Assembly (NCBI GenBank): GCA_030765065.1
Contig: CM060990.1
Coordinates: 11,903,501-11,967,500, forward strand
Length of the DNA stretch: 64,000 nt
Direction: 5' to 3'
Source: Deroplatys truncata
Lineage: Eukaryota > Arthropoda > Insecta > Mantodea > Mantidae
Both the position numbers and the translations under genes were made by a program. Below, piece after piece: positions 5,722 through 62,835 of this stretch (within the stretch, counting starts at the first letter, position 1; every line of letters begins with the position of its first letter). The notes below the pieces were generated by a model, which saw only the letters and a program-made list of their open reading frames with translations, was not told where the DNA came from and searched no databases.

Positions 5722-6165
5722 GAACGAGGTGCCTCGTGGTAATGCGCGAGCTTCGCATTTGGGAGGTCCCGAGCTCGATTCCGGTCAGGTTGCCCACTAT
5801 GACACTATGTAGTTTTTCGCGATATCGCTGGGTCGGTAGGCGAATGCTGGGGTGGTTCATGTCCCACCAAGGATTTCCTTTCCCTGTCGTTACCTTTCAT
5901 CTGTTTCAGGGTTAAAGGACTAGGCGAAGGCGTTCCGTTTTGTTGTGAAAGGCGGCTGATTGTGCTCTTTACAAAGGTTTCTCGCTGGCGTTTGTTTGGT
6001 CAGCTCGGATTCCACCTCCCTGGAGCATGCCTCAGGTCCACGGGATCTCAGGCGGGTGTGAGGGTGAAGCCGCTTCATTATGTGCTCCATCTGAGCCTGT
6101 CATTGCTTGCACACATCGTCGTCCGCACCTGGTAGCCCTTCGAGACAACACCTCATCTCTGCCTC
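5722..6165 (+). mobile_element. SINE-B copy 1 (tRNA-headed), head of satellite 1
   Basis: A tRNA-like pol III head is visible at about 5725-5790: an A-box-like GTGGTAATGCGCG and a B-box-like GAGCTCGATTCC. It is followed by the family body, including GGTAGGCGAATGCTGGGGTGG, a pyrimidine-rich CCTTTCCCTGTCGTTACC block and TGTTTCAGGG near 5905. The body ends in GCTTGCACACATCGTCG (about 6112), a sequence also present at 45.7 kb (minus) and 47.98 kb just before satellite monomers. The first satellite monomer follows without a gap. It is not a functional tRNA gene because no complete cloverleaf can be drawn. Confidence 0.7.
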
Positions 6166-7135
6166 ACAGCGGTCACGTTAGAAGCAAAAAGGGCCGTTGC
6201 GGCCTGCTTTTGGTGCTCTGCTTCAGGTTCTACAGGTCCCTCCCTCCCTGTGGACATCCCTGCCTCCCAGGGCCAGGTTAGAAGAAAAAAGGCTCATTGC
6301 AGCCTACTTGAGGTAATCTGTTTCAAGTTCTAGAGGTCCCTCCCTCCCTGTGGACATCCCTGCCTCCCAGGGCCAGGTTAGAAGAAAAAAGGCTCATTGC
6401 AGCCTACTTGAGGTAATCTGTTTCAGGTTCTAGAGGTCCCTCCCTCCCTGTGGACATCCCTGCCTCCCAGGGCCAGGTTAGAAGAAAAAAGGCTCATTGC
6501 AGCCTACTTGAGGCAATCTGTTTCAGGTTCGAGAGGTCCCTCCCTCCCTGTGGACATCCCTGCCTCCTAGGGCCAGGTTGGAAGAAAAAAGGCTCATTGC
6601 AGCCTACTTGAGGTAATCTGTTTCAGGTTCGAGAGGTCCCTCTCTCCCTGTGGACATCCCTGGCTCCTAGGGCCAGGTTAGAAGAAAAAGGGCTCATTGC
6701 AGCCTACTTGAGGTAATCTGTTTCAGGTTCTAGAGGTCCCTCCCTCCCTGTGGACATCCCTACCTCCAAGGGCCAGGTTAGAAGAAAAAAGGCTCATTGC
6801 AGCCTACTTGAGGTGCTCTGTTTCAGGTTCTAGAGATCCCTCCCTCCCTGTGGACATCCCTGCCTCCAAGGACCAGGTTAGAAGAATAAAGGCTCATTGC
6901 AGCCTACTTGAGGTGCTCTGCTTCAGGTTCTAGAGGTCCCTCCCTCCCTGTGGACATCCCTGCCTCCCAGGGCCAGGTTAGAAGAAAAAAGGGCTCATTG
7001 CAGCCTACTTGAGGTAATCTGTTTCAGGTTCGAGAGGTCCCTCCCTCCCTGTGGACATCCCTGCCTCCCAGGGCCAGGTTAGAAGAAAAAAGGCTCATTG
7101 CAGCCTACTTGAGGTGCTCTGTTTCAGGTTCTAGA
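6166..7135 (+). repeat. Satellite 1, 100 bp monomer sub-array
   Basis: About nine monomers repeat at exactly 100 bp: AGCCTACTTG falls at 6301, 6401, 6501 and so on. Monomers differ by a few bases, such as GGTAATCTG versus GGTGCTCTG. Compared with the 116 bp form further on, this form lacks the segment reading CTGTACTGCTACTCC. Short distances between copies argue for recent local amplification. Confidence 0.9.
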
Positions 7136-10100
7136 GGCTCCGCCGTCTCTGTACTCATGCGCTACCCCTTATCTCTCTCTCCCAGAATCACTTAGAGGAA
7201 AAAGGGCCATTGTGGCCTATTTACGATACTATTTGCTCGATTCTGGAAGACACTCTGTCTCTGTACTGATACTCTTCCCCTCATCCCTCCCTCACTCCCA
7301 CTCTGCAGGGTCACCTTGGAAGAAATAGGGTAGTTGCGGCCTGCTTGCCGTGCTCTGCTGCAAGTTTTGGGGGCCCCTCCGTCTCTGTACTGCTATTTAT
7401 CGCCTGTTCCCTCCTTCCCAGGGTTTCGTTACAAACAAAAAGGGCCATTGCGGCCTATTTCCGGTGCTCTGCTCCAGGTTCTGGAGCACCCTCCGTCTCT
7501 GCGCTGCCACTACTCCCCCAGTTCCCTGTCTCCCAGACTCACGTTAGAAGAAAAAGTGGCCGTAGCGGCCTACCTGTGCAACTCTCCTCCAGGTTCTAGA
7601 GGCCCATCCGTCACAGTATTCCTACTGCTCCCCTTCATACCTGCCTCGCAGATTCACGTTAGAAGTACAAAGAGCCGTTGCGACCTGCTTGCGGTGCCCT
7701 TCTCCAGGATCTAGAGTCCTTTCGTCTCTGTAACGCTACTACTCCCCTTTATTACTGCCTTCCAGGGTAACGTTACAAGCAGAAAGGATCATTGCGGCCC
7801 ACTTAATGTGCTCTGCTCCAGTTTCTGGCCCCCTCCGATTCGCTGATGCTAAAATTCCTCTATCCCTCGCTTCCAGGGGTCACGTTAGAAGCAAAAACGG
7901 TCCACTTGGAGTAGTTTGCTCCAGGTTCTTTGGCCCCTCCGTCCCGGTACTCCTACATTTCGCCTCATTCCTCGCTTTCATGGGTCACGTCAGAAGTAAA
8001 AGGGGCCGTTGCGGCCTACTTGCAATTCTGTACCAGGTCTCTGTACTCCTACTGCTCCAATTCATCCCTCCCTATCAAGAGTCACGTTAGCAGCAAACAG
8101 GACCGTTGCGGCCTACTTGCAGTGTCCTGCTCCAGGCTCTGGAGACCCTCCGTCCGTGTACTGCTATACGTTCCCTCATCCTTCCTTCTCAGGGGTCACG
8201 TTAGCATCAAGCAAGGCCATTCCGCCTACTTTTGGGGCTTTGCTCCAGGGTCTAGAGGCCCCGCCGTTCTCTACTGGTACTTCCTTCCCTCATCCCTCCC
8301 TCCAAGAGGTCACGTTAGAAGCAAAACATGCCGTTCGGGCAACTTATGGTGCTATGCTCCAGGTCCTAGAGGCCCCTCCGTCTCTGTACTACCGCTCCGC
8401 TCATCCCTGCCTCCCAGGGCCACGTTAGTAGCAAAAGGCGCCACTGCGTCTTACTTACAGTCCTCTGATCCGGTATCTGGAGGCCCCTTCGCTGCACTCC
8501 TACTCTTCCCTTATTGCTCCCTCATATGGGTCACGTCAGAAGCAAAAAGGACAGTTGCGGCTTACCTGCAGTGTTCTGCTCCAAGTTCTGGAGGCCCCAC
8601 CGTCTCTGTACTCCTACTACTGTTCCTCCAACCTCCCATACAGGGGTCATATTAGTCTCATACATGACCATTATGGCCTACTTGCTGTGTTCTGCTCCAG
8701 GTTCTGGAGGCCCCTCCGTCTCTACTACTACTGCTCCCCTCATCCCTACCTTCCATGGGTCACGTTAGTTGCAAGCAGGGCCATTGAGACCTACCTGCGG
8801 TGCTCTGCTGCAGACTCTAGAGGCACCCCCGTCTCTTTACGCATACTGCTATCATGCCCGCTTCCCAGGGTCAAGTTAGAAGCATAAAGGGCCGTTGCAG
8901 CCCACTTGATGTGCCCTGCTCCAACTTCTGGATGTGCTGCCATCTCTGTACTCATACACCTCATCTTCATCCCTCCCTCCCTCCCTCCCAGTGTCACGTA
9001 GATGCAAAAAGGGTTATTTCGGCCTATTTGCAGTACTCTGCTCCAGGTTATGAAAGCCCTTGCATCCCTGTACTGCTACTCCTCTGGTCACCCCTGCCTC
9101 CCAGGGGAACGTTAAAAACAAGAAACAACATAACGGAATATTTGCGGTCCTCTGCTCCAGTTTCTGGAAACCTCACCGGCTCTGTACAGCTGCTCTCCCC
9201 CATATCCCTGTCTCCCAGGGTCACATCAGAAACAAAAGGGCCGTTGCGATCTACATGCGGTGCTCTACTCCAGGTTCTAGAGCCCATCCGTCCCTATACA
9301 GCTATGCTACCCTATATCCTGCCTTCCAGGATAACTTTGGAAGAAAAAAGCACCATTGCTGCCTACTTGCGGTAGACTCCTCCAGGATTTGGGGGCATCT
9401 CCGTCTATGTACTGCCTCTCCTCCCCATCATCCCACTCTCTCAGGGACATGTTAGAAGCAAAACGGCCATAACGGCAGAGTTGAGGTGCTCTGCTCCAGG
9501 TACTGAAGACCGCACCATTTCTATACTACTACTCCTCCCCCATATCCCTACCTCCCAATGATCATGTTAGAAGCAAAAGGGGCCATTGCGGCTTACGTGC
9601 TGTGCTCTGCCTCAGGTTCTGTAGCCCAGCAGTCTCTGTAATGCTAGCCACGACCTTCATCCTTCCCACCATCCCAAAGATCACATTGCAAGAAAAAGGG
9701 CCGTTACGTTCTGCCTGCGGTGCTCCACTGCAGGTTCTAGAGAACCATCCATTTCTGTTCTGCTGCTCCTTCCCCACATCCTTGCCTGACTATTTTCCCG
9801 TTAGAAGCAATTGGGGGCCGTTGTTGCCTATTTTCTGTGCTCTTATAAAGATTATGCATGCCCCTACCTCTACAATACCAACCTTCCACCTCATCCCGCT
9901 TCCCTCCTTCCCTACTGTCACGATGGAAGCAACATGGGCCATTGCCGCCTATCTGCGATGCTCTACTCTAGGCTTTGGAGGCCGCTCCACCCTGTACTCC
10001 TGGTCCCGCTCATCCTTTCATCCCAGGGTCACATAAGAAGCAAATAGGATCCTTGCGGCATAATTGCAACAGTATGCTTCAGGTTAACGAGGTCACCCGT

Positions 10101-12637
10101 TTCTGGATTCCTACACCTTCCCCTCATCCCACCGTCCCACGGGTCACGTTGGTAGCAAAACGGACCATTGCAGCCTATTTCCGGTGCTCTGTTCCACGTC
10201 CTGGAGGCCCCTCTATCTTTCTACTGCTACTCCTCCCCCAAAGGTGTGCCTCCAAATGGTCACCTTAGAAGCAAAAGGGGCCGTTGCGTTCTATTTGCGG
10301 TGCTCTGCTCCAGGTTCTGGAGACACCTCCTTTTCTTTGCTGCCACACATCTCCCTTATCCCCATCTCCCAAGGCAACGTAGAAGCAAAAACGACCAATG
10401 CAGCCTGTGCTCCAGTTGCTTGAGGTCCCTCCATCTCTGTACTGCTGCTACTCCCCTCATCCCTCCTAGAGACACATTAGAAGAAAAAGGGGCAGTTGCA
10501 ATCTACTTCCGTGCTCTGCCCCAGGTTCCAGATGCCCGTTCGTCTCGGTACTCCCACTGCACCCCTTCATCCCTACCTCCAAGTTCATACTATAAGCAAA
10601 AAGGCCCACTCTGTACTACCTTGCTCCTGGTTCTGGAGGTCCCTCCGTCTCTGTAGTACTAATACTCCCTCTCATCGTTGCCTCCTAAGAGTCACATTAG
10701 AAGAAAAATGGACGATGCTGCCTAATCGTGGTGCTCTACTCCAGATTCTGGAGGTCCTTCCATCCCTGTACTGCTACTTTTCCCCCTCATCCCTCCCGCG
10801 CCGGAGTTACGTTAGCAGCAAACAGGGCCATTGCAGCACACTTGCTGTGCCTTGCTCCGGGTTGTGGAGCTCCTCCGTTCTGTAGTGCTACTCCTCCCTT
10901 CATCCTACCGTAACGTCCCACTTGCGGTGCTCTTTTCCGAGTTTAGAGGCTTTTCCCTCTCTGTACTCGTACTGCTACCCTTCCTCCCTTCCTCCCAGGG
11001 GACACGTTAGAAGCAAAAACTGCCGTTGCGGCCAACTTGCAGTGCTTTCCTCCAGTTTCTGGGGGCCCTCCGTCTCTGGACTGTACTCGTCCCTCCTCAT
11101 CTCTGTCTACCCAGAGTCACGTCAGAAGCAAAAAGGGCCGTTGCTGCCTACTTGCGGTGCCCTTCTCTAGGATCTAGAGTCCTTTCGTCTCTGTAACGCT
11201 ACTACTCACCTTTATCCCTGCCTTCCGGGGTAACGTTGCAAGCAGAAAGGACCATTGCGGCCCACTTACTATGCTCTGCTCCAGTTTCTGGGCGCTCCTC
11301 CGTCTCTATGATGCTACCATACCACCCTCCCAAAAGTCACATTGGAAGCAAAAAGGACAATTGTGGCTTACTTGCGGTGAACTGCTCCAGGTACTGGTGG
11401 CACGTCCACTTCTGAACCGCTACTCCATCCCACATCCTTGCCTCCCGGTGGTCCCGTCAGAAGCAAATGTGGCCGTTACGCCTACTTGCGGTGTTCTAAA
11501 ATAAATTCTGTAGGCTCCTCCATCTCTGTAATGCTACCTGGCCCCTCGTTCCTCCTTCCCTCTTTCCCTAAGGTCGTGATGGAAGCAACAAGGCCATTAC
11601 AATCTACATGCACTGCTGTGCTCCAGGTTCTTGAAAACCCTCCATCTCTGTACCGCTACTCCTCCCCCTCATCCCTCCATCCCAGGATCACATTAGAAGC
11701 AAAAAGGGTCATTGCAGCCTATTTGGGGTGCCCTGCTCCAGGTTCTGGAGGCCTATCCATTTCTGTGTTGCTACTCCTCTTCCACCTCCCAATGGTCACG
11801 TTAGAAGCAAAAGGGCCGTTGCGGCCTATTTGCGGTGTTCTGTTCCAGGATCTAGACGTTCCTCCTTCTGTGTACTTCGACAACTCCACCTCATGCTTCC
11901 CTCCCAGGCGTCACGTTAAAGCACAAAGAACCGAACGGACTACTTGCAGCGATTTGCTGCAGGTTCTGATGGGCCCTTTGTCACTCTATTCCTAATGTTT
12001 TCCCTTATTCCTCCCTCAAATGAGTCAACTCAGAGGTTATGGCCGTTGTGGCCTACCTGCCAAGTTGTGCTCCATGTTCTGTAGGCCCCTCTATATGTAC
12101 TCCTACTGCTCCCCGTCATATCTCCCACCCGTGGGTCACGTTAGTAGCAAACAGGGCCGTCAGGGCCTACTTGCAGTGTTATACTCCGGGTTCAGGTGAA
12201 CCTTCCGTCTCTAGACTGCTACACCTCCACCTCATCCCTCCCTCCCAGACGTTACGTTAGTAGCAAGCAGGGTCGTTATGGTCTACGTGCAGTGCTGTGC
12301 TCCAGGGTCAAGAGGTCCTTCCGTCTCTGTACTTCTACTCCTCTCCCTCATTCCTCCCTCACAGGGGTTGCGTTAGTAGCAAGCAGGATCACTGCCGACT
12401 ACTTGCGGTGTTCTGCTCCAGGTACTGGGAGCCCCTCAGCCTTTGTACTACTCCTCCTTCCCCTCATCCCTCCTTCCCAGAGGTGACGTTAGAAGCAACG
12501 AGGACCATTGCCACCTACCTTCCGTGTTTTGCTCCAGCTTCTGGAAGCCCCTCCATCTCCGTACTGCTGCTCTTTTCGTCATCCCTCCTTCCCAGTGGCC
12601 ACGTTAGTACCAAAAAGGTCATTGCGACCTACTTGTA
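7136..12637 (+). repeat. Satellite 1, diverged ~110-120 bp monomers
   Basis: Around 47 monomers of one family, strongly diverged from one another, share anchors such as GTCACGTTAGAAGCAAAAAGG, GTGCTCTGCTCCAGG and a pyrimidine-rich CCCTCATCCCTCCCTCCCAG. Many open frames of 60-240 codons on + are by-products: the monomer is poor in stops, and 116 bp is not a multiple of three, so frames rotate. No coding role is supported. Confidence 0.9.
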
Positions 12638-14775
12638 GTGCTATGCTCCAGCTTCTGGAGACAGCTCCGTCGTTGTAGCACTACTCCTCCCCTTCATCCC
12701 TCCCTCTCAGGGGTCGCGTTAGTAGCAAAAAGGGGCATTGCCATCTACCTGCAGTGTTCTGCCCCAGTTTTTGGAGGCACCTCCGTCTCTGTAGAGCTAC
12801 TTCTCCCCTTCATCCCTCCCTCTCGGAAGTCACGTTAGCAGCAAAAAGGGCATTGCAATCTACCTGCAGTGTTCTGCTCCAGCTTCTGGAGGCACGTCCG
12901 ACTCTGTAGAGCTACTCCTCCCCTTCATCCCTCCCTCTCAGGGGTCACGTTAGTAGCAAAAAGGGGCATTGCAACCTACCTGCAGTGTTCTGCTCCAGCT
13001 TCTGGAGGCACCTCCGTCTCTGTAGAGCTACTCCTCCCCCTCATCCCTCCCTCTCAGGGGTCACGTTAGTAGCAAAAAGGGGCATTGCCACCTACCTGCA
13101 GTGTTCTGCTCCAGCTTCTGGAGACACCTCCGTCTCTGTAGAGCTACTCCTCCCCCTTAGCCCTCCCTCTCCGAAGTCACGTTAGTAGCAAAAAGGACAT
13201 TGCCTCCTACCTGCAGTGTTCTGCTCCAGCTTCTGGAGGCACCTCCGTATCTGTAGAGCTACTCCTCCCCCCTCATCCCTCCCTCTCAGGGGTCTCGGTT
13301 GTAGCAAAAAGGGCATTGCCTCCTACCTGCAGTGTTCTGCTCCAGCTTCTGGAGGCACCTCCGTATCTGTAGAGCTACTCCTCCCCCTCATCCCTCCCTC
13401 TCAGAGGTCACGTGAGTAGCAAAAAGGGCATTGCCTCCTACCTGCAGTGTTCTGCTCCAGCTTCTGGAGGCAGCTCCGTCTCTGTAGTGGTACTCCTCCC
13501 CTTCATCCCTCCCTCTCAGAGGTCACGTGAGTAGCAAAAAGGGCATTGCCTCCTACCTGCAGTGTTCTGCTCCAGCTTCTGGAGGCAGCTCCGTCTCTGT
13601 AGTGGTACTCCTCCCCTTCATCCCTCCCTCTCAGAGGTCACGTGAGTAGCAAAAAGGGCATTGCCATCTACCTGCAGTGTTCTGCTCCAGCTTCTGGAGG
13701 CACCTCCGTCTCTGTATCACTACTCCTCCCCCTTATCCCTCCCTCTCAGGGGTCATGTTAGTAGCAAAAAGGGGCATTGCCATCTACCTGCAGTGTTCTG
13801 CTCCAGCTTCTGGAGGCACCTCCGTCTCTGTATCACTACTCCTCCCCCTTATCCCTCCCTCTCAGAGGTCATGTTAGTAGCAAAAAGGGGCATTGCCATC
13901 TACCTGCAGTGTTCTGCTCCAGCTTCTGGAGGCACCTCCGTCTCTGTATCACTACTCCTCCCCCTTATCCCTCCCTCTCAGGGGTCATGTTAGTAGCAAA
14001 AAGGGGCATTGCCATCTACCTGCAGTGTTCTGCTCCAGCTTCTGGAGACACCTCCGTCTCGGTAGCGCTACTCCTCCCCCTCATCCCTCCCTCTCAGGGG
14101 TCATGTTAGTAGCAAAAAGGGGCATTGCCACCTACCTGCAGTGTTCTGCTCCAGCTTCTGTAGGCACCTCCGTCTCTGTATCACTACTCCTCCCCCTTAG
14201 CCCTCCCTCTCAGAGGTCATGTTAGTAGCAAAAAGGGGCATTGCCATCTACCTGCAGTGTTCTGCTCCAGCTTCTGGAGGCACCTCCGTCTCTGTATCAC
14301 TACTCCTCCCCCTTATCCCTCCCTCTCAGAGGTCATGTTAGTAGCAAAAAGGGGCATTGCCATCTACCTGCAGTGTTCTGCTCCAGCTTCTGGAGGCACC
14401 TCCGTCTCTGTATCACTACTCCTCCCCCTTATCCCTCCCTCTCAGAGGTCATGTTAGTAGCAAAAAGGGGCATTGCCTCCTATCTGCAATGTTGTGCTCC
14501 AGCTACTGGAGGCACCTCCGTCTCTGTAGCGCTACTCCTCCCCCTTAGCCCTCCCTCTCAGAGGTCATGTTAGTAGCAAAAAGGGGCATTGCCTCCTATC
14601 TGCAGTGTTGTGCTCCAGCTTCTGGAGGCACCTCCGTCTCTGTATCACTACTCCTCCCCCTTAGCCCTCCCTCTCAGAGGTCATGTTAGTAGCAAAAAGG
14701 GGCATTGCCTCCTATCTGCAATGTTGTGCTCCAGCTACTGGAGGCACCTCCGTCTCTGTAGCGCTACTGCTACCT
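12638..14775 (+). repeat. Satellite 1, homogenised 116 bp monomers
   Basis: About 18 monomers repeat at 116 bp with high identity (for example equivalent positions 13661, 13777 and 13893). A dimeric 232 bp pattern is visible near the distal end: the variant CTGCAATGTTGTGCTCC recurs at about 14485 and 14717. The array ends abruptly near 14770 in unrelated AT-rich sequence. The homogenised block lies at the end furthest from the SINE head. Confidence 0.92.
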
Positions 14776-16645
14776 GCACTTCTGCTAGTAGATCAGTTTA
14801 AAGGAAAAATATCCTGTTGCAAGTGAAATATTCCCTTTAGATGATACATTGCAAAATCTTCCAAAATTGCTAACAGCACACAGAGAGTTTAATGTTAAAG
14901 TGTTAATTTTACGTGCAAATGGAGACTTATTGAATGTTTTATAGCGACTTTATGTCAGTGGTAGAAGGATCAAATAATGGAGCATAATTAAAAGCATAAT
15001 ATCAGAATTAAATCTAAAAGACCAGGTTTTAGATGTAGGCGGTTGTTTGGCACAAAATAATTTGTGGCAGTATGTATAAAGTAATATTTATATTTGGAAA
15101 ATCAAGGAAGTAATAGGAATAGTTATGCTACTAAGCTCACAATAAGCGAGTAGGATTTTTTGGAAACACTCTCTTCTGCGCTTGGAAAATGGTTAATATT
15201 TTTTTGCCTACCGAGAGATGTTTCTTTCGTTCGTCATTTGTAATATTTAAACATATAGGTGATATTCTGATATTTCTATTTGATTTTGCGTAAATTGCGC
15301 AGTAGTGTGAGGAAATGCACGAACAAAGAAAACTAATTTCTCAACGTTTAGCTCAGAAATACTGCTTTTAATTACTTGTGATGACGATTTGTTTACCAGA
15401 AATATAATTATTATAGTTTTAGATGTGTAAAATAATTTCCCTTTTTTCCTTTAAATACCTATGTTGTAAAAATACAGTAAATTACAGTTAATTCGTAGTT
15501 CAGAAATAGAGTATAAGCGCATTTAAATAAGAATGCTTTAACTTACCTGTTGGCGCAAAATCTTGATACAGCAGGGATTCGTTTTTGTAATAAAGGTTTA
15601 GACTTCAACAATAAGCGATATGCGTAAAGTAAGCAATTTTCCTGGAGTGTACACCTACACCATGGAAATTACTAAGTGTTACAGACCAATAACTTACATG
15701 AATGAAGCGTATGCGAAACTAAGGAACTCGCTCAATTTTCTAACGTTCATTATCTGACAACTGTAAAATCTCAGAAATATCCCATTCGAGAACTCCATAT
15801 GTCTTCCTTATTACCACCTAAGGCAAGTTGAAAGCCCAATTTTGGAAATAATGTCCCATTAGAAAGCAATACGTTGACTCCCGCTTATTCACGTGCTAAA
15901 ATCGATTTCTTGTCCTTTAGCATATAAATCATAAATGTTACAAAAAGCATTCTAATAAATTCATTGTTAACCATACAACCCTTCAATTCGGAGAATATTT
16001 CTCAGTTCTTTATAAAATTGTACATCAGCTACTCTTCAGTTGCGATGTGCTTGAAGTAATTTTGCCATCAAGCCAAAATGTTTAAAATGGCATTATTGAC
16101 AAATGTGCTTATTCCTCCCGTGCGCTCTGTTGAATTACCGACGTTGCGCATGTGCCTATGAGGGCTTGGCACAAAGAGTCAGTTGGCACAGGTTTTCTAA
16201 AGAGAGGAAAAGTTCTGAAGAAGAAACGTCACAATATGTGCCGGTTCTACAGAGGCGGAATTAAAAAATTAGAACTTAGGGGACAATAATGACATTACTT
16301 AATCTCACCGCAAGTGTTCTGAGAATGCACAAAAAGGTTGATCAGTAGCGCCTTTAGTTGCTGGCATACGCAGTGTGACTGCATAGTCGGCTCGATGACA
16401 CGGAATCGGCTGGCACAATTTCAAATCAAGATACGCTTCTGTGTTTTCCTTTCATTTGGATAGTTCATGTAAAGTGGCCTTCATTCGTGAACCAAAATGA
16501 CGCATTCTGAGACATTTGGAACATCTTCAAATCGTTTGCTGCCCAGTAGCTTTAGGTCAACAATGTTGGTCCAAAAGCACCTAGAATATGAGCTGCTGAA
16601 AACGGCCTACTAATTTCTAAGTGCGCATTCTGCCATATTGGTATT
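14776..16645. other. Unassigned AT-rich stretch
   Basis: No open frame of note, repeat or transposon signature is recognised. It is AT-rich and unique at the level I can read. Confidence 0.5.
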
Positions 16646-38450: not shown

Positions 38451-38454
38451 AGGG

Positions 38455-44416: not shown

Positions 44417-44536
44417 TAAGGAATTTTGGAGTTATACCAGAGTCTCGGCAGCGCAGTAGGAAAGCGATGATTTCTGCTTACGCAACCCTTCCAGGTGACG
44501 GGTCAGACGATATGTCTCCTCCCCGTAGAGGCGAGT

Positions 44537-45725: not shown

Positions 45726-46135
45726 GGGTACCGGATCCAGATGACGACGGGCACAAGCATGTACGGGGTCCCTAATGTTTCCAGATTAAGCACATCCAAG
45801 CCCCTATCCTCCGAAGGAGCGCCTGCCCGAAATAATTCAGAGGCGAAACTTAACTGAGCTGACCCTGGAACGATGTCAGGAAGAAACCTAGTCCTACAAC
45901 CCTGAAACATGTTACAAGGAAGATGAGGGGTACAGGAAATGAGGCACAGAAATGTCGCAGAATTCACCAATCGACCCGGTCAAACCGCGAGAAACCCTGG
46001 GTTAGAATCGGGGATCGCCGGAGATGGAACTCGGGACCACGGCGCCAACTCTCCTGGTTTGAATGGGAGGTCCGCCGTTCACATCCCACCAGGGCCGTCC
46101 TCCCTGATTTTACCTTTCCAACTGCTAAGGAGTAG
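45726..46135 (-). mobile_element. SINE-B copy 3, head of satellite 3
   Basis: On minus from about 46130: a tRNA-like region with GGACCTCCCATTCAAACC and GTCCCGAGTTCCATCTCC, then CGACATTTCTGTGCCTCATTTCC, TGTTTCAGGGTTGTAGGACTAGG (as in copy 1) and ATTAGGGACCCCGTACATGC. CCGTCGTCATCTGG and TACCCCTTCG lead directly into the first monomer. The head is divergent; the downstream body matches copies 1 and 7 best. Confidence 0.65.
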
Positions 46136-47713: not shown

Positions 47714-48030
47714 CAAATACTGGCGTGGTTCCTCTTCTGTCATTAATTGCAGTCCATCATTTCCTATCATCTGTCCCAGATCTGTAGACCAGGCGACGGG
47801 TTCGGTGTGTTGTGACTGGGCGGTGGATACGCGCTTTGGAAAAGTTTAACCTGGCGTTGGTGGGATTTCTGACGGACGCGCTTTCTGGAGAGATTCCTGG
47901 TCCTTAGGGCCTTTAAGCTTGTGGGCAGGACTGTTCGGCGTCCGGATGTGTTCTATCTGGAATCGCTAGGGACCCCGTCTATGCTTGCGCACATCGTCGC
48001 CCGAATGTGGTCACCCTTCGGGTCTACCCC
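47714..48030 (+). mobile_element. SINE-B copy 7, head missing
   Basis: Starts within the body (ACTGGCGTGGTTCCTCTTCTGTC, TTTCCTATCATCTGTCCCAG) and continues through GGAATCGCTAGGGACCCCGTC and GCTTGCGCACATCGTCGCCCG, as in copies 1 and 3. The tRNA-like head is lost at the junction with SINE-A copy 4. Confidence 0.7.
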
Positions 48031-48150
48031 TATTCCCTCCCACCCAGTGGTCAAGTTTGAAGCAAAAGAGCCACTCTACCCCCTTGCGGTGCTTTGACCC
48101 GGTTTCGGGGGCTCCTTCGTCATCTGTAGTCCAACCTGCAGCTCTAGACA
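48031..48150 (+). repeat. Single satellite 1/3-type monomer
   Basis: One monomer reads CCCTCCCACCCAGTGGTCAAG, TTTGAAGCAAAAGAGCC, CTTGCGGTGCTTTGACCCGG and TTTCGGGGGCTCC, then changes to unrelated sequence. It stands where an array begins in copies 1 and 3. Confidence 0.75.
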
Positions 48151-51084: not shown

Positions 51085-51305
51085 TAACGAGGGAGGTGGC
51101 TACGCGGCAAAGCGTGAGGCTGGCATTTGGGAGGTTCGGGGTTAGATTCCGTTTGAGCCGTCCAACCTAGCGGTTTCCCTGGTAGGCGAAAGTTGGAGTG
51201 GATCATCCAATGTCGCGATTTTCCTGCCCTTCATTTCCTTATCATGTTGCAGGGTCGAAGGATCAGAAGAGTGGACAACGGGCGAAGTATATGCCGGTGG
51301 GGCTT
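51085..51305 (+). mobile_element. SINE-B copy 4, head of satellite 4
   Basis: tRNA-like head at 51088-51152 (ACGAGGGAGGTGGCTACGCGG, B-box-like TTCGGGGTTAGATTCCG). The body follows with GGTAGGCGAAAGTTGGAGTGG, CCCTTCATTTCCTTATCATG and TTGCAGGGTCGAAGGATC. Satellite 4 starts near 51305 on the same strand. Confidence 0.72.
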
Positions 51306-53300: not shown

Positions 53301-56300
53301 CGGAAGATCAGAATGGCGGGCCTGTAGAGGGGGTGCCAGGATGTAATGCCTGCCCTGGTTTTCGGTATAGGACTAACATCAGAGACAAATGGGCCTGTGG
53401 GGGATGTCAGGAGTGATGTCTGCCCTGGCATTCGGTATGTGACAGAACATCAGGGACACCTCTACGTGAGCAGAATTGGGCCTGTGGAGGGGACAGTAAG
53501 GATGTAATGTCTGCCCTGGCGCTCAGTGTGTGACGGAACATCAAAGAGACCTCGCCGTGAGGAGTGCTAGTCCTGTGGAATGCATCGTCAGAATGTAATG
53601 CCTGCTCTTGCGTTCGGTGTGTGACGAAACATCGGTGAGAAGTGGGCCTGTGGAGGGGCTTGTCAGGATGTAATATCTGCCCTGGTTTTAGGTGTGGCGG
53701 GACACCAGAGGGACAACTCCGTGAGGAGCGCTAAGGCTGTAGAGGGGTTCGTCCGGATGTAATGACTACCCTCGCGTTCGTTATTTAACGGAACAACACA
53801 GTGGTGAAACATGAGGTTAAAGAGGGCCATCAGGATGTAATGCATGTCCTCACGTTCAGTGTGACGGAACATCTGTGAGAAGTGAGCTTGGATGGGACCC
53901 TCCGGATGTAATGTCTGCCTCAAGTTCGTTGTGTAGGAACATCAAGTAGATGTGGGCGTGTGGAGGGGGCGTCACCAAATAATGTCCGCCTTCATATTAG
54001 GTGTGACGGAACGTCAGAGGGAGGTGGGCCTGTGGAAGGAGTTTCCGGATATTACAGCTGCCCTTACGTTCGGGGTGTGACGTGAAAACAGAGAGAGGAG
54101 GGCCTGTGGAGCAGGGAGTCAGGATCTAATATCTGCCCTCACGCTGGGTGTACGTCGGAACATCAAAGAGAGGTTGCCCTGTGGAGGGGGGCGTCAGGAT
54201 GTAATGTCCGCCCTCACGTTCGTTGTGACGGAAGATCAAAGAGAGGTGGGCCTATGAAGGCGAGTATTGGGATGTAATGTCTTTCCTCACGTTCATTACG
54301 TGACTGAGGTGGGCCTGTGGAGGAGTCTTCGGAAGGTAACATCTGCCATCACTTTCGTAATGTGACGGAACGTGAGAAAGGTGGAGCAGTGGAGGGGCCG
54401 TCGGCATGTAACACCTGCCCTCATTTTCTCATCGGAGAGAGGAGGGATTGTGGATGGTTCGTCCTGATGTAGTGATCACCCTCACTTCCCTTATGTGACG
54501 GAACTTCAGAGAGTGGTGGGCCTGTGGAGGGTGACGCCAGAATGTAATATCTGCGATGGTGTTCGGTGTGTGATGGAACACCAGAGGGAGGTGGGGCTGT
54601 GGATGGGGGCCCTCAGGATCTAATGTCTGGCCAGGTGTTCGGTGTGTGCCGAAACATCAGAGAGTGGTAGGTCTTTGGGGGCCAGCGTCAGAATGTAACG
54701 TCTCCTGTCACGTTACGTATGTGACGGATCATCAGAGAGAGGTCGGCATGTGGATGGGGGTAACAAGTGCTAATGTCTGGCCAGGTGTTCGGTGTGTGCC
54801 GGAACATCAGAGAGAGGTGGGCCTTTGGAGGGTAGCGTTAGTATCTAATGCCTGCCCTCACGTTTCTTATGTGACGTAACATCAGAAAGAGGTGGGCCTG
54901 TGGATGTGAGCGTCAGGATATAATACCTGCTCTCGTGTTCGGTGTAACAGAACATCAGTAAGAGGTGCGGCTGCGGAGAGGTGCTTCAGTATGTAATGTC
55001 TGATCCCACGTTCGATGTGTGACATAACATCAGAGAGAGGTGGGCCTGCGGTAGGGTGCGTTAGGATGTAATGTCCGCCCTCAATTTCGGTGTGCGACAG
55101 AACATCGGATAATCGTGGTCCTGTGGAGGAAGCGCCAGGAAATATTATCTGCCCTGGTGTTCGGTGTGTACTAGGACAGCAGAGAGTGGTGGGCCTTTGG
55201 AGGGGAGCGTCAAAATGTAACATCTGCCTTCACGTTATTTATGTGACGGATCATCAGAGATGGGTGTGTTGTAGATGGGGCATCAGGTTGTAATGTCTGC
55301 CCACATGTTCCATATGTGAAGGAATATCAGATAGAGGTGGGTCTGTGGAGGGTGCGTCAGGATATAATGTCTGCCCACATGTTCCATATGTGAAGGAATA
55401 TCAGATAGAGGTGGGTCTGTGGAGGGTGCGTCAGGATATAATGTCTGCCCTCATGTTCCATATGTCCGGAACATCATAGAGAGTTGGGCCTGTGGAGGGT
55501 GCGTCAGAAAGTATGTCCGCCCTCATGTCCATATGTGCCGGAAGATCAGAGAGAGGTGGGCCTGTGGATGGTGCGTCAGGATGTAATGTCTGCCGTCATG
55601 TTCCATATGTGCCGGAAGATCAGAGAGAGGTGGGTCTGTGGAGGGTGCGTCAGGATATGTCTGCCCTCATGTTCCATATGTGAAGGAATATCAGAGAGAG
55701 TTGCGCTTGTGGAGGGTGCGTCAGGATGTAATGTCTGCCCTCATGTTCCATATGTACCGGAACATCAGAGAGAGTTGGGCCTGTTGTAGGGTGCGTAAGG
55801 AAGTATGTCCGCCCTCATGTCCATATGTGCCGGAAGATCAGAGAGAGGTGGGCCTGTGGATGGTGCGTCAGGATGTAATGTCTGCCCTCATGTTCCATAT
55901 GTGCCGGAAGATCAGAGAGAGGTTGGTCTGTGGACGGTGCATCAGGATGTAATATCTGCCCTCATGTTCCATATGTGAAGGAATATCAGAGAGAGGTGGG
56001 TCTGTGGAGAGTGCGTTCAGGATGTAATGTCTGCCGTCATGCTCCATATGTGAAGGAATGTCAGATAGAGGTGGGTCTGTGGAGGGTGCGTCAGGATGTA
56101 ATGTCTGCCCTCATGTTCCATATGTGCCGGAAGATCAGAGAGAGGTGGGTCTGTGGAGGGTGCGTCAGGATGTAATGTCTGCCCTCATCTTCCATATGTG
56201 CAGGAAGATCAGATAGAGGTTGGTCTGTGGACTGTGCGTCAGGATGTAATGTCTGCCCTCATGTTCCATATGTGAAGGAATATCAGAGAGAGGTGGGTCT

Positions 56301-59300
56301 GTGGAGGTTGCGTTCAGGATGTAATGTCTGCCCTCATGTTCCATATGTGAAGGAATATCAGATAGAGGTGGGTCTGTGGTGGGTGCGTCAGGATGTAATG
56401 TCTGCCCTCATGCTCCATATGTGAAGGAATATCGGATATAGTTGGGTCTGTGGAGGGTGCGTCAGGATGTAATGTCTGCCCTCATGTTCCATATGTGCCG
56501 GAAGATCAGAGAGAGGTGGGTCTGTGGAGGGTGCGTCAGGATGTAATGTCTGCCCTCATCTTCCATATGTGCCGGAAGATCAGATAGAGTTGGGCCTGTG
56601 GAGGGTGCGTCAGGATGTAATGTCTGCCCTCATGTCCATATGTGACGGAAGATCAGAGAGAGGTGGGTCTGTGGAGGGTGCGTTCAGGATGTAATGTCTG
56701 CCCTCATGTTCCATATGTGAAGGAATATCAGATAGAGGTGGGTCTGTGGAGGGTGCGTCAGGATGTAATGTCTGCCCTCATGTTCCATATGTGCCGGAAC
56801 ATCAGAGAGAGTTGGGCCTGTCGAGGGTGCGTCAGGAAGTTTGTCCGCCCTCATGTCCATATGTGCCGGAAGATCAGAGAGAGTTGCGCTTGTGGAGGGT
56901 GCGTCAGGATGTAATGTCTGCCCTCATGTTCCATATGTACCGGAACATCAGAGAGAGTTGGGCCTGTTGTAGGGTGCGTAAGGAAGTATGTCCGCCCTCA
57001 TGTCCATATGTGCCGGAAGATCAGAGAGAGGTGGGCCTGTGGATGGTGCGTCAGGATGTAATGTCTGCCCTCATGTTCCATATGTGCCGGAAGATCAGAG
57101 AGAGGTTGGTCTGTGGACGGTGCATCAGGATGTAATATCTGCCCTCATGTTCCATATGTGAAGGAATATCAGAGAGAGGTGGGTCTGTGGAGAGTGCGTT
57201 CAGGATGTAATGTCTGCCGTCATGCTCCATATGTGAAGGAATGTCAGATAGAGGTGGGTCTGTGGAGGGTGCGTCAGGATGTAATGTCTGCCCTCATGTT
57301 CCATATGTGCCGGAAGATCAGAGAGAGGTGGGTCTGTGGAGGGTGCGTCAGGATGTAATGTCTGCCCTCATCTTCCATATGTGCAGGAAGATCAGATAGA
57401 GGTTGGTCTGTGGACTGTGCGTCAGGATGTAATGTCTGCCCTCATGTTCCATATGTGAAGGAATATCAGAGAGAGGTGGGTCTGTGGAGGTTGCGTTCAG
57501 GATGTAATGTCTGCCCTCATGTTCCATATGTGAAGGAATATCAGATAGAGGTGGGTCTGTGGTGGGTGCGTCAGGATGTAATGTCTGCCCTCATGCTCCA
57601 TATGTGAAGGAATATCGGATATAGTTGGGTCTGTGGAGGGTGCGTCAGGATGTAATGTCTGCCCTCATGTTCCATATGTGCCGGAAGATCAGAGAGAGGT
57701 GGGTCTGTGGAGGGTGCGTCAGGATGTAATGTCTGCCCTCATCTTCCATATGTGCCGGAAGATCAGATAGAGTTGGGCCTGTGGAGGGTGCGTCAGGATG
57801 TAATGTCTGCCCTCATGTCCATATGTGACGGAAGATCAGAGAGAGGTGGGTCTGTGGAGGGTGCGTTCAGGATGTAATGTCTGCCCTCATGTTCCATATG
57901 TGAAGGAATATCAGATAGAGGTGGGTCTGTGGAGGGTGCGTCAGGATGTAATGTCTGCCCTCATGTTCCATATGTGCCGGAACATCAGAGAGAGTTGGGC
58001 CTGTCGAGGGTGCGTCAGGAAGTTTGTCCGCCCTCATGTCCATATGTGCCGGAAGATCAGAGAGAGGTGGGCCTGTGGATGGTGCGTCAGGATGTAATGT
58101 CTGCCCTCATGTTCCATATGTGCCGGAAGATCAGAGAGAGGTTGGTCTGTGGACGGTGCGTCAGGATGTAATGTCTGCCCTCATGTTCCATATGTGAAGG
58201 AATATCAGAGAGAGGTGGGTCTGTGGAGGGTGCGTTCAGGATGTAATGTCTGCCCTCATGCTCCATATGTAAAGGAATATCGGATATAGTTGGGTCTGTG
58301 GAGGGTGCGTCAGGATGTAATGTCTGCCCTCATGTTCCATATGTGCCGGAAGATCAGAGAGAGGTGGGTCTGTGGAGGGTGCGTCAGAATGTAATGTCTG
58401 CCCTCATCTTCCATATGTGCCGGAAGATCAGATAGAGTTTGGTCTGTGGACGGTGCGTCAGGATGTAATGTCTGCCCTCATGTTCCATATGTGAAGGAAT
58501 ATCAGAGAGAGGTGGGTCTGTGGAGGGTGCGTTGAGGATGTAATGTCTGCCCTCATGTTCCATATGTGAAGGAATATCAGAGAGAGGTGGGTCTGTGGAG
58601 GGTGCGTTGAGGATGTAATGTCTGCCCTCATGTTCCATATGTGAAGGAATATCAGATAGAGTTGGGTCTGTGGTGGGTGCGTCAGGATGTAATGTCTGCC
58701 CTCATGTTCCATATGTGCCGGAAGATCAGAGAGAGGTGGGTCTGTGGAGGGTGCGTTCAGGATGTAATGTCTGCCCTCATGCTCCATATGTAAAGGAATA
58801 TCGGATATAGTTGGGTCTGTGGAGGGTGCGTCAGGATGTAATGTCTGCCCTCATGTTCCATATGTGCCGGAAGATCAGAGAGAGGTGGGCCTGTGGAGGG
58901 TGCGTCAGGATGTAATGTCTGGCCTCATGTCCATATGTGCCGGAAGATCTGATAGAGGTGGGCCTGTGGAGGGTGCGTCAGGATGTAATGTCTGCCCTCA
59001 TGTCCATATGTGCCGGAACATCAGAGTGAGGTGGGCCTGTGGATGGTGCGTCAGGATGTAATGTCTGCCCTCATGTTCCATATGTGCCGGAAGATCAGAG
59101 AGAGGTTGGTCTGTGGACAGTGCGTCAGGATGTAATGTCTGCCCTCATGTTCCATATGGGAAGGAATATCAGATAGAGGTGGGTCTGTGGAGGGTGCGTC
59201 AGGACGTAATGTCTGCCCTCATGCCCATATGTGACGGAAGATCAGAGAGATGTGGGCCTGTGGAGGGTGCGTTCTGGATGCAATGTCTGCCCTCATGCCC

Positions 59301-60245
59301 ATATGTGCCGGAAGATCAGAGAGATGTGGGCCTGTGGAGGGTGCGTCAGGATGTAATGTCTGCCCTCATGCCCATATGTGACGGAAGATCAGAGAGATGT
59401 GGGCATGTTGATGGTGCGTCAGGATGTAATGTCTGCCCTCATGTTCCATATGTGCCGGAAGATCAGAGAGAGGTGGGCCTGTGGAGGGTGCGTCAGGATT
59501 TAATGTCTGACCTCATGTTCCATATGTGACGGAACATCAGAGAGAGGTGGGCCTGTGGAGGGTGCGTCAGGATGTAATGTCTGCCCTTATGTTCCATATG
59601 TGACGGAACATCAGAGAGAGGTGGGCCTGTGGAGGGTGCGTCAGGATGTAATGTCTGCCCTCATGTTCCATATGTGACGGAACATCAGAGAGAGGTGGGC
59701 CTGTGGAGGGTGCGTCAGGATGTAATGTCTGCCCTTATGTTCGATGTGTGAGGGAACATCAGAGAGAGGTGGGCTTATGGAGGGTGCGTCAGGATGTAAT
59801 GTTTGCCCTTATGTTCGATGTGTGAGGGAACATCAGAGAGAGGTGCGCTTGTGGAGGGTGCGTCAGGATGTAATGTTTGCCCTTATGTTCGTTGTGTGAG
59901 GAAACATCAGAGAGAGGTGCGCTTGTGGAGGGTGCGTCAGGATGTAATGTTTGACCTTATGTTCGTTGTGTGAGGGAACATCAGAGAGAGGTGCACTTGT
60001 GGAAGGTGCGTCAAGATGTAATGTCTGCCCTTATGTTCGTTGTGTGAGGAAACATCAGAGAACCGTGCAGGGGACGTGAGGATGTAATGTCTGCCTTCAC
60101 ACTTGGTGTGTGATGGAATATCAAAAAATGGAAGGGCCTGTGTTGGGAGTGTCAGGATGTAACACCTGTTCTCACGTTGGATGTCTGACGGAATATTAGA
60201 GAATGTTGGGTCTGTGGATGGGGCGTCAGGGTGTAATATCTGTAG
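53301..60245 (+). repeat. Satellite 4, distal ~74 bp monomers
   Basis: Monomers shorten to about 74 bp by loss of the CTCCGTGAGGAGAGCTA block: GAACATCAGAGAGAGGTGGG then CCTGTGGAGGGTGCGTCAGG. The change is gradual between about 53.2 and 54.3 kb. Identity between neighbours rises sharply beyond 55.3 kb, then variants with TTCGTTGTGTGAGG appear at 59.7-60.06 kb before the array ends in degenerate copies. Open frames on both strands (up to 138 codons) are repeat artefacts. Confidence 0.92.
55700..58065 (+). repeat. Higher-order repeat, 2 x 1,183 bp (16 monomers)
   Basis: 55700-56882 and 56883-58065 are the same to the eye, including idiosyncratic variants (GTTGCGCTTGTGGAGG start, GGAGGTTGCGTTCAGG, GATATAGTTGGGTC). 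Equivalent frames recur exactly 1,183 bp apart, e.g. 55930/57113, 56227/57410, 56642/57825. A third partial copy follows from about 58066, lacking its first two monomers. Confidence 0.93.
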
Positions 60246-60261
60246 ACGTTAGGGACACCAA

Positions 60262-61572: not shown

Positions 61573-61965
61573 TACCGAGCGAGATGTCTCCGCGGTAACG
61601 TGCCAGGCTCCTGGGGCCGGGCACTCGCATCATTCTCTGGCTAGTCTAATACTAGGGTGGTTTCTCTTCCATCACAAATTTCCTTTCCCCTCATTTACTT
61701 GCATTTCTCCTCCCCCTTCATGTCTTAGCTAGGATTAGGGGCTGTGTAGTGTCGGTCGGTGTGGAACAAATGGCGCCGATGCTCGCTCGTTCGAAAGTTC
61801 TTCTGGGGCCTGACAGATGGCAGGCTTCTCTGGGCCGACTAATGTGGGTCTAGTTCTTCTCGGTTTCGCCAGAGTAAAGCCTTCTATAAGCAGCCTGCCG
61901 GTGTGTAGGGGTCATCAAGCTTGGAATTGTTAGGGACTTTGGCGCGTCTCTGTCCTCTCTGCGGC
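61573..61965 (+). mobile_element. SINE-B copy 5, head of satellite 5
   Basis: Head TACCGAGCGAGATGTCTCCG with GGTAACGTGCCAGGCTCC, then CTAGGGTGGTTTCTCTTCC, CCTTTCCCCTCATTTAC, GTGTCGGTCGGTGTGG, GATGCTCGCTCGTTCG and GGAATTGTTAGGGACTTTGG. It matches SINE-B copy 6 along the body, but unlike copy 6 it runs into a tandem array. The B box is poorly preserved. Confidence 0.78.
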
Positions 61966-62835
61966 CTATAGCCTCCTGGCGGTGGTCAGCACAAAGGATC
62001 CGTGTTGGGTCGAGGTGCGAGGTGTTCCCTCCGTTCCTTGGTCACAGTCACACCTATAGCCTCCTGCGGTTCCTTCACCCCATCCGTTCCTCCTGGCGGT
62101 GGTCAGCACAAAGGATCCGTGTTGGGTCGAGGTGCGAGGTGTTCCCTCCGTTCCTTGGTCACAGTCACACCTATAGCCTCCTGCGGTTCCTTCACCCCAT
62201 CCGTTCCTCCTGGCGGTGGTCAGCACAAAGGATCCGTGTTGGGTCGAGGTGCGAGGTGTCCCCTCCGTTCTTTGTTCACAGTCATACCTATAGCCTCCTG
62301 CGGTTCCTTCACCCCATCCGTTCCTCCTGGTTAGTCAGCACAAAAGATACGTGTTAGGTCGAGGTGCGAGGTGCTCCCTCCGTTCCTTGGTCACAGTCAT
62401 ACCTATAGCCTCCTGTGGTTCCTCCTGGCGGTGGTCAGCACAAAGGATACGTGTTGGGTCGAGGTGCGAGGTGTTCCCTCCGTTCTTTGTTCACAGTCAT
62501 ACCTATAGCCTCCTGCGGTTCCTTCACCCCATCCGTTCCTCCTGGTTAGTCAGCACAAAGGACCCGTGTTGGGTCGAGGTGCGAGGTGTCCCCTCCGTTC
62601 CTTGGTCACAGTCACACATATAGCCTCCTGCGGTTCCTTCACCCCATCCGTTCCTCCTGGTGTGGTCAGCACAAAAGATCCGTGTTGGGTCGAGGTGCGA
62701 GGTGTCCCCTCCGTTCCTCGGTCACAGTCACACATATAGCCTCCTGCGGTTCCTTCACCCCATCCGTTCCTCCTGGTGTGGTCAGCACAAAAGATCCGAT
62801 TTGGGTCGATGTGCGAGGAGTCCCTCCGTTCCCTG
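61966..62835 (+). repeat. Satellite 5, 117 bp monomers
   Basis: About seven to eight monomers: GGTGGTCAGCACAAAGGATCC, GTGTTGGGTCGAGGTGCGAGG, TCACAGTCACACCTATAGCC, TTCACCCCATCCGTTCCTCC. The first period is 117 bp (61981, 62098, 62215); one monomer near 62400 is shortened. Because 117 is divisible by three, frames stay open on both strands (e.g. 62002-62334 on +), which is not evidence of coding. Weak parallels to the 116 bp monomer (GTCA near the start, GCGAGGTG/GCGGTG, CATCC...CCTCC at the end) hint at shared origin. Confidence 0.93.

Follow-up and report, generated by a model that had tools for sequence, protein, structure and literature searches.

The window, a stretch of 64,000 nucleotides, contains seven copies of a SINE family called SINE-B, as identified by cross-comparison and a SINE-B profile. 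They start at 5722 (+), 25249 (-), 38819 (-), 46040 (-), 47714 (+), 51087 (+) and 61574 (+); those at 38819 and 47714 have no array, and the other five lead straight into one. The earlier note had placed five arrays longer than 600 bp directly 3' of SINE-B copies, and TRF, cross-comparison and the profile bear this out in the window, as they do the claim that each array shares the orientation of its SINE (three on +, two on -).

5722..6153, + strand: SINE-B copy 1 (subfamily 2), with head, body and start of the 3' module (profile match 4-185, E 6e-27)
6154..14790, + strand: array 1, the amplified 3' module of copy 1, with period 100, then ~114, then 116 (TRF, 6154-14768)
21374..21391, no strand: 3' copy of the element 2 target-site duplication (16/18 with 25250-25267)
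21392..21440, - strand: unique 3' tail beyond array 2 (aligns with the post-array tails in L099 and L100)
21473..25035, - strand: array 2, a 74-bp VNTR of a dispersed composite family (TRF)
25041..25252, - strand: SINE head and body of composite element 2, class I (profile match 2-190, E 1e-13)
25250..25267, no strand: 5' copy of the element 2 target-site duplication (16/18 with 21374-21391)
38440..38822, - strand: array-free SINE-B copy, a relative of copy 5 (profile match 4-406)
45013..45698, - strand: array 3, an amplified 3' module, period 101 (TRF)
45700..46055, - strand: SINE-B copy 3 (subfamily 2), 5' part incomplete (profile match from position 46, E 3e-9; relatives L012 and L021)
47714..48130, + strand: SINE-B copy that is truncated at its 5' end and has one 3' module (cross-comparison)
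51092..51330, + strand: head and body of SINE-B copy 4 (profile match 2-200, E 2e-16; against L023, 0/400 shuffles as good)
51331..60240, + strand: array 4, an amplified inner body segment in 91- then 74-bp units, with a higher-order repeat (TRF, 51370-60242)
60225..60260, + strand: SINE-B body resuming beyond array 4, the TTAGGGAC block (against L023, 0/400 shuffles as good)
61574..61971, + strand: SINE-B copy 5, head and body (profile match 1-425, E 3e-29)
61972..62839, + strand: array 5, the amplified SINE 3' module (consensus ~411-515), period 117 (TRF; seven units match the module, E 2e-10 to 5e-3)
63516..63820: a shorter array of 305 bp, away from SINE-B (TRF)

Copy 1 is collinear with the solo copies L022, L024 and 47714-48130, and the middle of array 1 includes stretches that are degenerate or unreported by TRF. 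The array-free copy at 38440..38822 has a possible target-site duplication (9/10) that was no better than chance in our test. The statement that every long array follows a SINE held within the window and failed just outside it, where the left 10-kb flank contains a 5-kb array without any SINE-B match. In the right flank there are two ~0.5-kb arrays, neither directly after one of that flank's SINE-B copies.

SINE-B is a very abundant and diverse SINE family of ~520-600 bp that looks LINE-dependent. The 4.29-Gb genome holds ~44,000 SINE-B body motifs: a genome search allowing up to three mismatches returned 22029 + 22442 matches, versus 4 + 4 for the control, which indicates a very high dispersed copy number. 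Copies end in a TATACC-like tail, and their core presumably resembles the cores of insect SINEs. Description of the family as tRNA-headed is based on motifs in the heads that we take to be like the A and B boxes of the pol III consensus. ARAGORN found no tRNA in the window, and Rfam gave no match on the SINE-B heads, its sole tRNA match, below threshold, being another element at 60483-60553. The solo copy L028 has a perfect target-site duplication (14/14) abutting both of its ends; none was clear in the other 10 solo copies examined. An array is not a regular part of SINE-B, since most sampled copies have none: arrays were found next to 0 of 20 body-anchored copies and at 2 of 40 module-anchored loci (excluding the pair that led to L035). 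One of the 20 body-anchored copies, L013, has an unrelated 193-bp repeat ~300 bp 3', which counts under the 500-bp criterion proposed in the earlier note. As controls we used sites of SINE-B 35-mers, sites with a single-copy module, the 10-kb loci anchored on the body, and both flanks of the window.

The five arrays had been read as one composite SINE-VNTR family with a layout like that of SVA. Two phenomena are mixed here, which we call class I (array 2) and class II (arrays 1, 3, 4 and 5), and the composite reading stands for array 2; arrays 1, 4 and 5 do not fit it, nor, probably, does array 3. Array 2 is part of a dispersed composite, made of a SINE head, a 74-76-bp VNTR and a unique 3' tail within an enclosing target-site duplication. 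Its unit occurs on at least seven contigs (C1, C4, C5, C7, C10, C14 and C16; best 40 of 153 candidates scored), and all three places that we fetched (L099, L100 and L101) are arrays. The order of the parts is fixed: L101, on C7, shares with element 2 the head, the linker and the head-to-array junction, hence head plus VNTR, and L099 and L100 share the unique tail after the array, hence VNTR plus tail. Element 2 is the only complete class I copy seen. The 16/18 duplication encloses its head, array and tail, and only 13 of 39245 random non-overlapping pairs were as good. Among L099, L100 and L101, unit identity is 0.88-0.95 within loci (0.947 in L101) and 0.88-0.92 between them; identity between these three loci is thus about that within them, and so the class I array travels with the element. 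The units of element 2 have drifted, with identities of 0.87 within and 0.81-0.85 between loci. The earlier note took the monomers of arrays 2 and 4 to be unrelated to those of arrays 1 and 3. No part of the array-2 unit matches the SINE-B bodies in the window.

For array 4, a lack of relation to the SINE is rejected, as its unit is a SINE-B segment that the solo copies L023 and L026 carry once. The unit is private, with no match outside its own locus in a genome-wide search and no significant match to the solos in the window. Neither the first unit against L023 (48/400 shuffles as good) nor the post-array stretch against L026 (32/400) gave a significant match, so the case for array 4 is carried by L023 and the later units. 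Beyond the array the SINE resumes, and the TTAGGGAC block there is the window's fifth best site, behind the four sites from which the matrix was built. In arrays 1 and 5 as well, and probably in array 3, segments of ordinary SINE-B copies have been amplified in place. Elsewhere the array-1 unit is mostly single, with one match listed at each of 29 places and four other tandem loci, and a late unit of array 1 is at most 86% alike to its outside matches and at most 84% to those in other tandem loci (best 40 of 84 candidates scored in each case). The solo at 47714 carries the array-1/3 unit once, and the last unit of array 3 matches it with z 8.7 (0/200 shuffles as good). The array-5 unit is the SINE's own 3' end. 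No hammerhead or other known RNA was found in the monomers of the window by Rfam at E up to 1.

Chance proximity, or insertion of SINEs beside satellites that already existed, is hardly credible, and nothing was found in its favor: the units of arrays 1, 3, 4 and 5 are SINE segments, the SINE picks up again beyond array 4, and array 2 lies together with its head inside one target-site duplication. We regard this explanation as refuted for arrays 2, 4 and 5.

In the main subfamily, the arrays have one common unit, which begins at consensus position ~413 and extends to the 3' end. A junction motif was used to fetch 14 loci, all of which are arrays with the unit 413-520, and in the four arrays that were selected otherwise (array 5, L035, L038 and L040) the unit likewise begins at 411-414 and finishes in the tail. 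L035 consists of SINE-B 1-511 followed by nine more modules with a period of 120, the ninth being truncated where the stretch stops. On a module tree of 18 arrays and 43 solos, the array and solo labels changed 16 times, versus 15.7 times when shuffled, and a single array clade was rejected (p-AU 0.028). This tree is poorly resolved (104 columns, two starred branches, which force only three changes). It comprised the 61 loci whose module match reaches consensus position 480 and 80 bases, with one of the two L020 matches and up to three units per array, and it omitted solos with shorter matches (e.g. L010, L012, L037, L042, L043 and L047) and both window solos. Mean unit identity in class II is 0.93 within loci, 0.82 between loci and 0.78 between solos, with low values within some arrays (L081 0.76, L076 0.81, L079 0.87). 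The main-subfamily arrays thus have scattered origins and mostly locus-specific units. Inheritance of the VNTR with the element was not found for array 5, by the main-subfamily tree and identities, for array 4, by its being private, or for array 1, by the limited likeness (86% and 84% at most) of its outside matches.

Could all of the arrays nevertheless be VNTRs retroposed from array-bearing source genes, as one mobile composite family? Array 2 behaves in this way, the common unit boundary of the main-subfamily arrays is as expected from a dimeric master, and solos could be explained by contraction to single units. We consider the idea improbable all the same, because arrays are scattered on the module tree, their units are mostly locus-specific, array 4 is private, the amplified segments differ among arrays, the 38 module-anchored loci without arrays include no direct-orientation copies with two or three units, and the sampled class II arrays are mostly terminal on their contigs and class I is not. 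For class II, a single array-bearing lineage is rejected by tree, identity and dispersal.

Target-site duplications spanning head and array were proposed as a check in the earlier note, and among the window's elements one was found for element 2 and none for elements 1, 3, 4 and 5. Outside the window, L035 plus L090, read by eye, have a duplication (10/11) around head and array, and the L035 units seem to include the first bases of the target site as well. The alternative on offer had been a Helitron or DINE-type element containing minisatellites, and the layout does recall the central repeats of DINEs, as far as these are described in the part of PMC9659126 that we draw on. This alternative is not supported and is very improbable, given the target-site duplications at L028, element 2 and L035, the SINE-type head and the variable tail.

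The arrays could have been born in more than one way. First, the LINE enzyme could, on reaching position 413 during target-primed reverse transcription, jump to the 3' end of a SINE RNA again, with expansion following later. The recurrent inner boundary and the unit ending in the SINE tail speak for such jumps, and by eye the internal spacer in L040 resembles that copy's own terminal tail. Yet the mechanism predicts short multimers everywhere, and none occurred in 20 interior loci; L035 units appear to hold target-site bases, and arrays 3 and 4, by eye, do not end at the tail. We regard it as unlikely. Second, the birth step may be slippage at the DNA level, which we favor, although an identical inner boundary in many independent arrays (14 of 18 selected by their junction) is unlike random DNA slippage.

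Most of the class II arrays sampled are close to the end of a contig, presumably a chromosome end, unlike ordinary SINE-B and class I. A distance of at most 25 Mb from a contig end applies to 9 of 12 junction arrays, 11 of 17 other array-5-like tandem loci and 4 of 5 array-1-like tandem loci, compared with 5 of 42 ordinary SINE-B copies, 1 of 29 array-1-like single places and 2 of 17 class I loci. In these tables, nearby matches of one search were merged by hand into loci among the matches listed, and the searches scored the best 40 of 1369 (array 5), 84 (array 1) or 153 (array 2) candidates. The three interior junction arrays are on C3 (two) and C5 (one). The 25-Mb cut was chosen after C1 had been inspected; with C1 excluded, the contigs of then known length give 7/10 versus 3/27 (p 0.001). 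Direct samples of C1 yielded arrays at 2 of 20 loci at 16-41 Mb versus 0 of 20 at 114-143 Mb, which is not significant (p 0.24). Single listed matches of the array-5 search are mostly terminal too (7/11), and the terminal effect may thus belong partly to the subfamily.

Chromosome ends might simply expand any sequence, with SINE-B the commonest substrate there and without any special property. The window flanks do contain arrays unrelated to SINE-B, and VNTR-associated polymorphism is described as extremely enriched in human subtelomeres in the portion of PMC7608644 considered. On the other hand, the main-subfamily unit is constant (413 to the 3' end), including in the four arrays not selected for it, and retention of the same unit argues that the SINE supplies a preferred one. 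We hold general expansion to be possible but doubtful as the whole account; it is compatible with our preferred explanation rather than exclusive of it.

That explanation, which we consider probable, is that arrays arise from the 3' part of SINE-B by two routes, in place (class II) and as mobile elements (class I). In class II, a segment of one SINE copy would be duplicated in tandem after insertion and grow in place to kilobases, while the units of the locus become alike. The duplicated segment in the main subfamily would extend from a fixed inner point (consensus ~413) to the SINE 3' end, and in copies 3 and 4 another stretch would have been duplicated. The setting would be mainly the outer ~25-35 Mb of chromosome-sized contigs, the simplest cause being recombination or break repair there that favors unequal exchange. 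In class I, one branch would keep the VNTR as a heritable part and retropose as head-VNTR-tail in the manner of SVA; mobilization of SINE-B would be by a LINE.

VNTR composite retrotransposons (SVA, LAVA, PVA and FVA) are described as specific to hominoid primates in the sections of PMC4432496 used here. As in that group, class I elements are non-autonomous and combine a SINE part, a heritable internal VNTR, a unique 3' part and a target-site duplication, and class II VNTRs would change at the DNA level, as reported there with microhomology. Unlike in that group, units are 74-76 bp here versus 30-50 bp there, most arrays here are made anew at each locus rather than inherited, and the host is apparently not a primate. 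We liken class I to SVA by layout and do not claim membership in SVA proper. Among the matches listed in the open-licence literature, as excerpted, we found no SINE-VNTR composite outside primates; if the host is not a primate, as its sequence suggests, class I would be an independent case of a VNTR composite. A more speculative reading, which we put forward tentatively, is that the SINE-B 3' module (from ~413 onward) serves as a cassette for amplification that would repeatedly give private satellites with the same breakpoint in terminal recombining zones. An occasional amplified copy would become a retroposition source and so found an SVA-like family, of which class I is an example. The genome would then display a full cycle in which a SINE gives a satellite in place and the satellite a mobile SINE-VNTR; SVA-like elements would arise again and again as SINEs evolve and would not be peculiar to primates.

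Reconstructions of how satellites are born and how SVA-like composites originate usually draw on a single old case or a handful of them. The SINE-B family offers single-unit copies, many independent arrays of the same unit, a derived array-carrying branch and a contrast between ends and interior, and with all of these in one assembly the order of events is testable. Satellites are known to arise from tandem repeats in the 3' regions of retrotransposons (PMC7004042, in part), and pea PisTR-A derives from the Ogre 3'UTR, as retold in a passage of PMC9659126. Satellites of this type resemble ours as long arrays from a 3' non-coding part of a retroelement; they differ in that our source is a short SINE, and many loci close to contig ends have each amplified the same unit on their own. 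That passage also lists SINE-derived satellites and minisatellites, namely Hy/Pol III of Hydromantes, satellite 1 of Xenopus and Alu minisatellites, in which tRNA-SINE or Alu sequence has likewise become tandem. The repeated part there is tRNA-related, a tail or another, unlike the 3' module here, where the head stays single at the array start. Among insects, the Sbg families of the German cockroach are tRNA-derived SINEs, one of them dimeric; the portions of PMC9191728 concerned do not mention kilobase arrays, unlike for SINE-B here, and they describe a similar head-body-tail layout with a microsatellite tail.

Blast with the five array heads, together with a SINE-B profile (522 positions, built from 10 solo copies, meaning copies without an array), identified seven SINE-B copies in the window. 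Five of the seven run directly into the five tandem arrays longer than 600 bp, with agreeing orientation, as an earlier note had described, and TRF placed the arrays close to the ends it gave. The remaining copies are solos:

38819-38467, minus strand, solo SINE-B (Blast and profile)
47714-48130, plus strand, solo SINE-B holding a single copy of the array 1/array 3 unit

Neither ARAGORN nor Rfam bore out the tRNA nature of the heads, also proposed there. A different tRNA-like interspersed element occurs at 60380-60560 (minus), where it contains a sub-threshold Rfam tRNA match, and at 47575-47715 (minus), where it adjoins the truncated SINE-B at 47714; the two copies are alike by eye. At 63516-63820, TRF detected three near-identical 99-bp tandem copies that are not SINE-B and that, by eye, adjoin a tRNA-like stretch on the opposite strand.

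SINE-B is abundant across this eukaryotic genome (4.29 Gb in 818 contigs, the large contigs C1-C16 summing to 4.18 Gb): its body motif GGTAGGCGAATGCTGGGGTGG, allowing up to 3 mismatches, has 22029 + 22442 matches, and a reversed-pattern control has 4 + 4. The tails are (TATACC)n-like. In one solo (L028), a target-site duplication of 14 bp without mismatch directly borders the head and the tail, and a clear duplication was seen in 0 of the other 10 copies examined. The idea that arrays lie 3' of SINE-B was checked on the first 20 exact GGTAGGCGAATGCTGGGGTGG matches, fetched at 10 kb each: 0/20 had an array within the SINE or immediately following it. L013 has a repeat ~300 bp 3' of the SINE (193 bp, period 65 bp, unrelated to it). 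Arrays of 36-bp period, ~2 kb each, lie some kilobases from the SINE in L012 and L013, as do ~0.5-kb repeats in L009 and L019. The units of the 36-bp-period arrays (L012:1-1894 and L013:3597-5833, C1 26-32 Mb) are unrelated to each other, and the L012 array stops ~0.5 kb ahead of a SINE-B-body-like stretch. The broader statement that every long array follows SINE-B holds for the five arrays within the window but fails in its flanks. The 10 kb to the left (L033) contains a 5-kb array at 2200-7195, made of GATGGT-rich and 177-bp repeats, with no SINE-B match in the whole 10-kb stretch, and the right flank (L034) has two ~0.5-kb arrays, neither directly after one of its SINE-B copies. Thus, the statement is only locally true.

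The proposal of a composite SINE-VNTR element, similar in layout to primate SVA, fits array 2, with its shared head junction, tail and dispersal, but not array 4, whose unit is private to its locus. The array-2 unit has 156 matches on C1, C4, C5, C7, C10, C14 and C16 (best 40 of 153 candidates), and all three places fetched (L099, L100 and L101) are arrays of 76-bp units. Head, body and linker join the array in L101 as they do in window element 2, and a AGTCCTACAAAG-like tail after the array is common to L099, L100 and element 2. Units of L099 are 0.880 identical among themselves, 0.883 to L100 and 0.893 to L101; the L100-L101 value is 0.917, compared with 0.917 within L100 and 0.947 within L101, while the units of element 2 have drifted (0.87 within, 0.81-0.845 between loci). 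In a test covering seven elements, the anticipated target-site duplication spanning head and array was present for element 2, where 16/18 bases match and abut head and tail (random non-overlapping pairs as good, 13/39245). Dispersal, shared head and tail, between-locus identity about equal to that within loci, and the duplication together indicate that arrays of this type (class I) travel with the element. The class I VNTR unit is matched many times within 130 kb at G000:C14:4658609-4790581, suggesting that the composite element underwent segmental expansion locally. In excerpts of published work, the VNTR composites SVA, LAVA, PVA and FVA are given as hominoid-primate-specific, with VNTR change at the DNA level driven by microhomology (PMC4432496), and SINEs as well as retrotransposon 3' regions are already known to give rise to satellites (PMC9659126; PMC7004042). 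Among the titles and abstract openings listed from open-licence literature, none described a SINE-VNTR composite outside primates.

Arrays 1, 4, 5 and probably 3 form class II, read as amplified in place. In array 5, the profile match of each of seven units covers positions 411-515 or close to that; the unit is the SINE's own 3' end, or module. The module start has 3139 exact genome matches (1637 + 1502; control 0). One adjacent pair among the first 100 led to L035 on C1, where SINE-B (1-511) is followed by nine more modules of period 120, the last incomplete at the stretch end. Excluding this pair, arrays occur in 2/20 module-anchored loci at C1 16-41 Mb (L038, L040) and 0/20 at C1 114-143 Mb, which is not a significant difference (p 0.24); the remaining 38 have a single module in direct orientation, and in L036 a second match is weak and inverted. 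A motif bridging the end of one unit and the start of the next has 1140 genome matches (control 0), and a rarer form of it has 34, spread over 12 loci and 8 contigs. All 14 fetched junction loci are arrays with a unit of about 413-520, as expected given their selection by this motif; the arrays not so selected (array 5, L035, L038 and L040) have the same unit start. Among the best 40 of 1369 candidates, array-5 units are 91-100% alike inside the window, while those elsewhere reach 91% at most, and the matches listed outside the window are mostly tandem.

Arrays 1 and 3 are built from the 3' module of a second SINE-B subfamily, a module present once each in 47714-48130, L012, L022 and L024. Among the best 40 of 84 candidates, a late array-1 unit forms tandem runs on C16 at 11.92 (window), 12.49, 695.71 and 702.74 Mb and on C10 at 34.4 Mb, with 29 further places having one listed match. 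Array-1 and array-3 units resemble each other about as closely as they resemble some solos. The array-4 unit runs from CCTGGCGTT to ATGTCTGT, occurring singly in L023 and L026, and the SINE body picks up again past the array with a TTAGGGAC block. Among 400 shuffles, 0 to 1 scored as well as the second and later units did; for the first unit, 1/400 did against L026 and 48/400 against L023, and for the stretch after the array 0/400 against L023 and 32/400 against L026. Similarity of a late unit to the in-window solos was not significant, and all 76 genome matches to the unit fall at the window locus.

A tree built on a short alignment of modules, 18 from arrays and 43 from solos, required 16 changes of array label, compared with 15.7 for shuffled labels. 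A single clade of arrays was rejected (p-AU 0.028), well-supported branches force just 3 changes, and array 5 grouped, with support, with six solos. Units of one locus averaged 0.93 identity; the mean was 0.82 between different array loci, 0.80 for array to solo and 0.78 for solo to solo (at most 3 units per locus; solo comparisons are a sample). Tree and identities point to independent origins of the arrays. A single 10/11 target-site duplication surrounds head and array in L035 taken together with L090 (random pairs as good, 67/39188). By eye, the L035 unit spacers seem to start with target-site bases, in which case tandem duplication would come after insertion. Also by eye, the L040 spacer resembles the same copy's own tail, and a duplication-like repeat flanks head and array.

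The window, at G000:C16:11903501-11967500, lies 11.9 Mb from one end of C16 (707 Mb); we assume that the ends of C1-C16 are chromosome ends. The first 100 of the 1140 junction-motif matches are all on C1, in five clusters each less than 25 Mb from its ends, compared with 3/78 exact body matches on C1 (Fisher 2e-6). With this 25-Mb cut-off, which the C1 data prompted, 9/12 junction arrays (Fisher 6e-5) and 11/17 other array-5-like tandem loci (Fisher 1e-4; 17/17 within 35 Mb) lie near a contig end; control sites of a 35-base SINE-B motif gave 5/42, and 10/42 within 35 Mb. Array-1-like tandem loci gave 4/5, window counted, versus 1/29 array-1-like single places (Fisher 5e-4), and class I loci 2/17 (Fisher 0.66). 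Leaving out C1, in a subset of contigs, the counts were 7/10 versus 3/27 (p 0.001). Single matches listed from the array-5 search were also near ends in 7/11 cases. Human subtelomeres are described, in an excerpt, as enriched for VNTR-associated polymorphism (PMC7608644).

Elsewhere in the window, 42163-44740 (minus) holds two adjacent open frames, with a fold-back repeat beside them at 44540-44740. The first shows weak reverse-transcriptase likeness (RVT_1, E 2.6e-4, below cut-off), and the second had no Pfam match. By their look, these frames may belong to a Penelope-like element.
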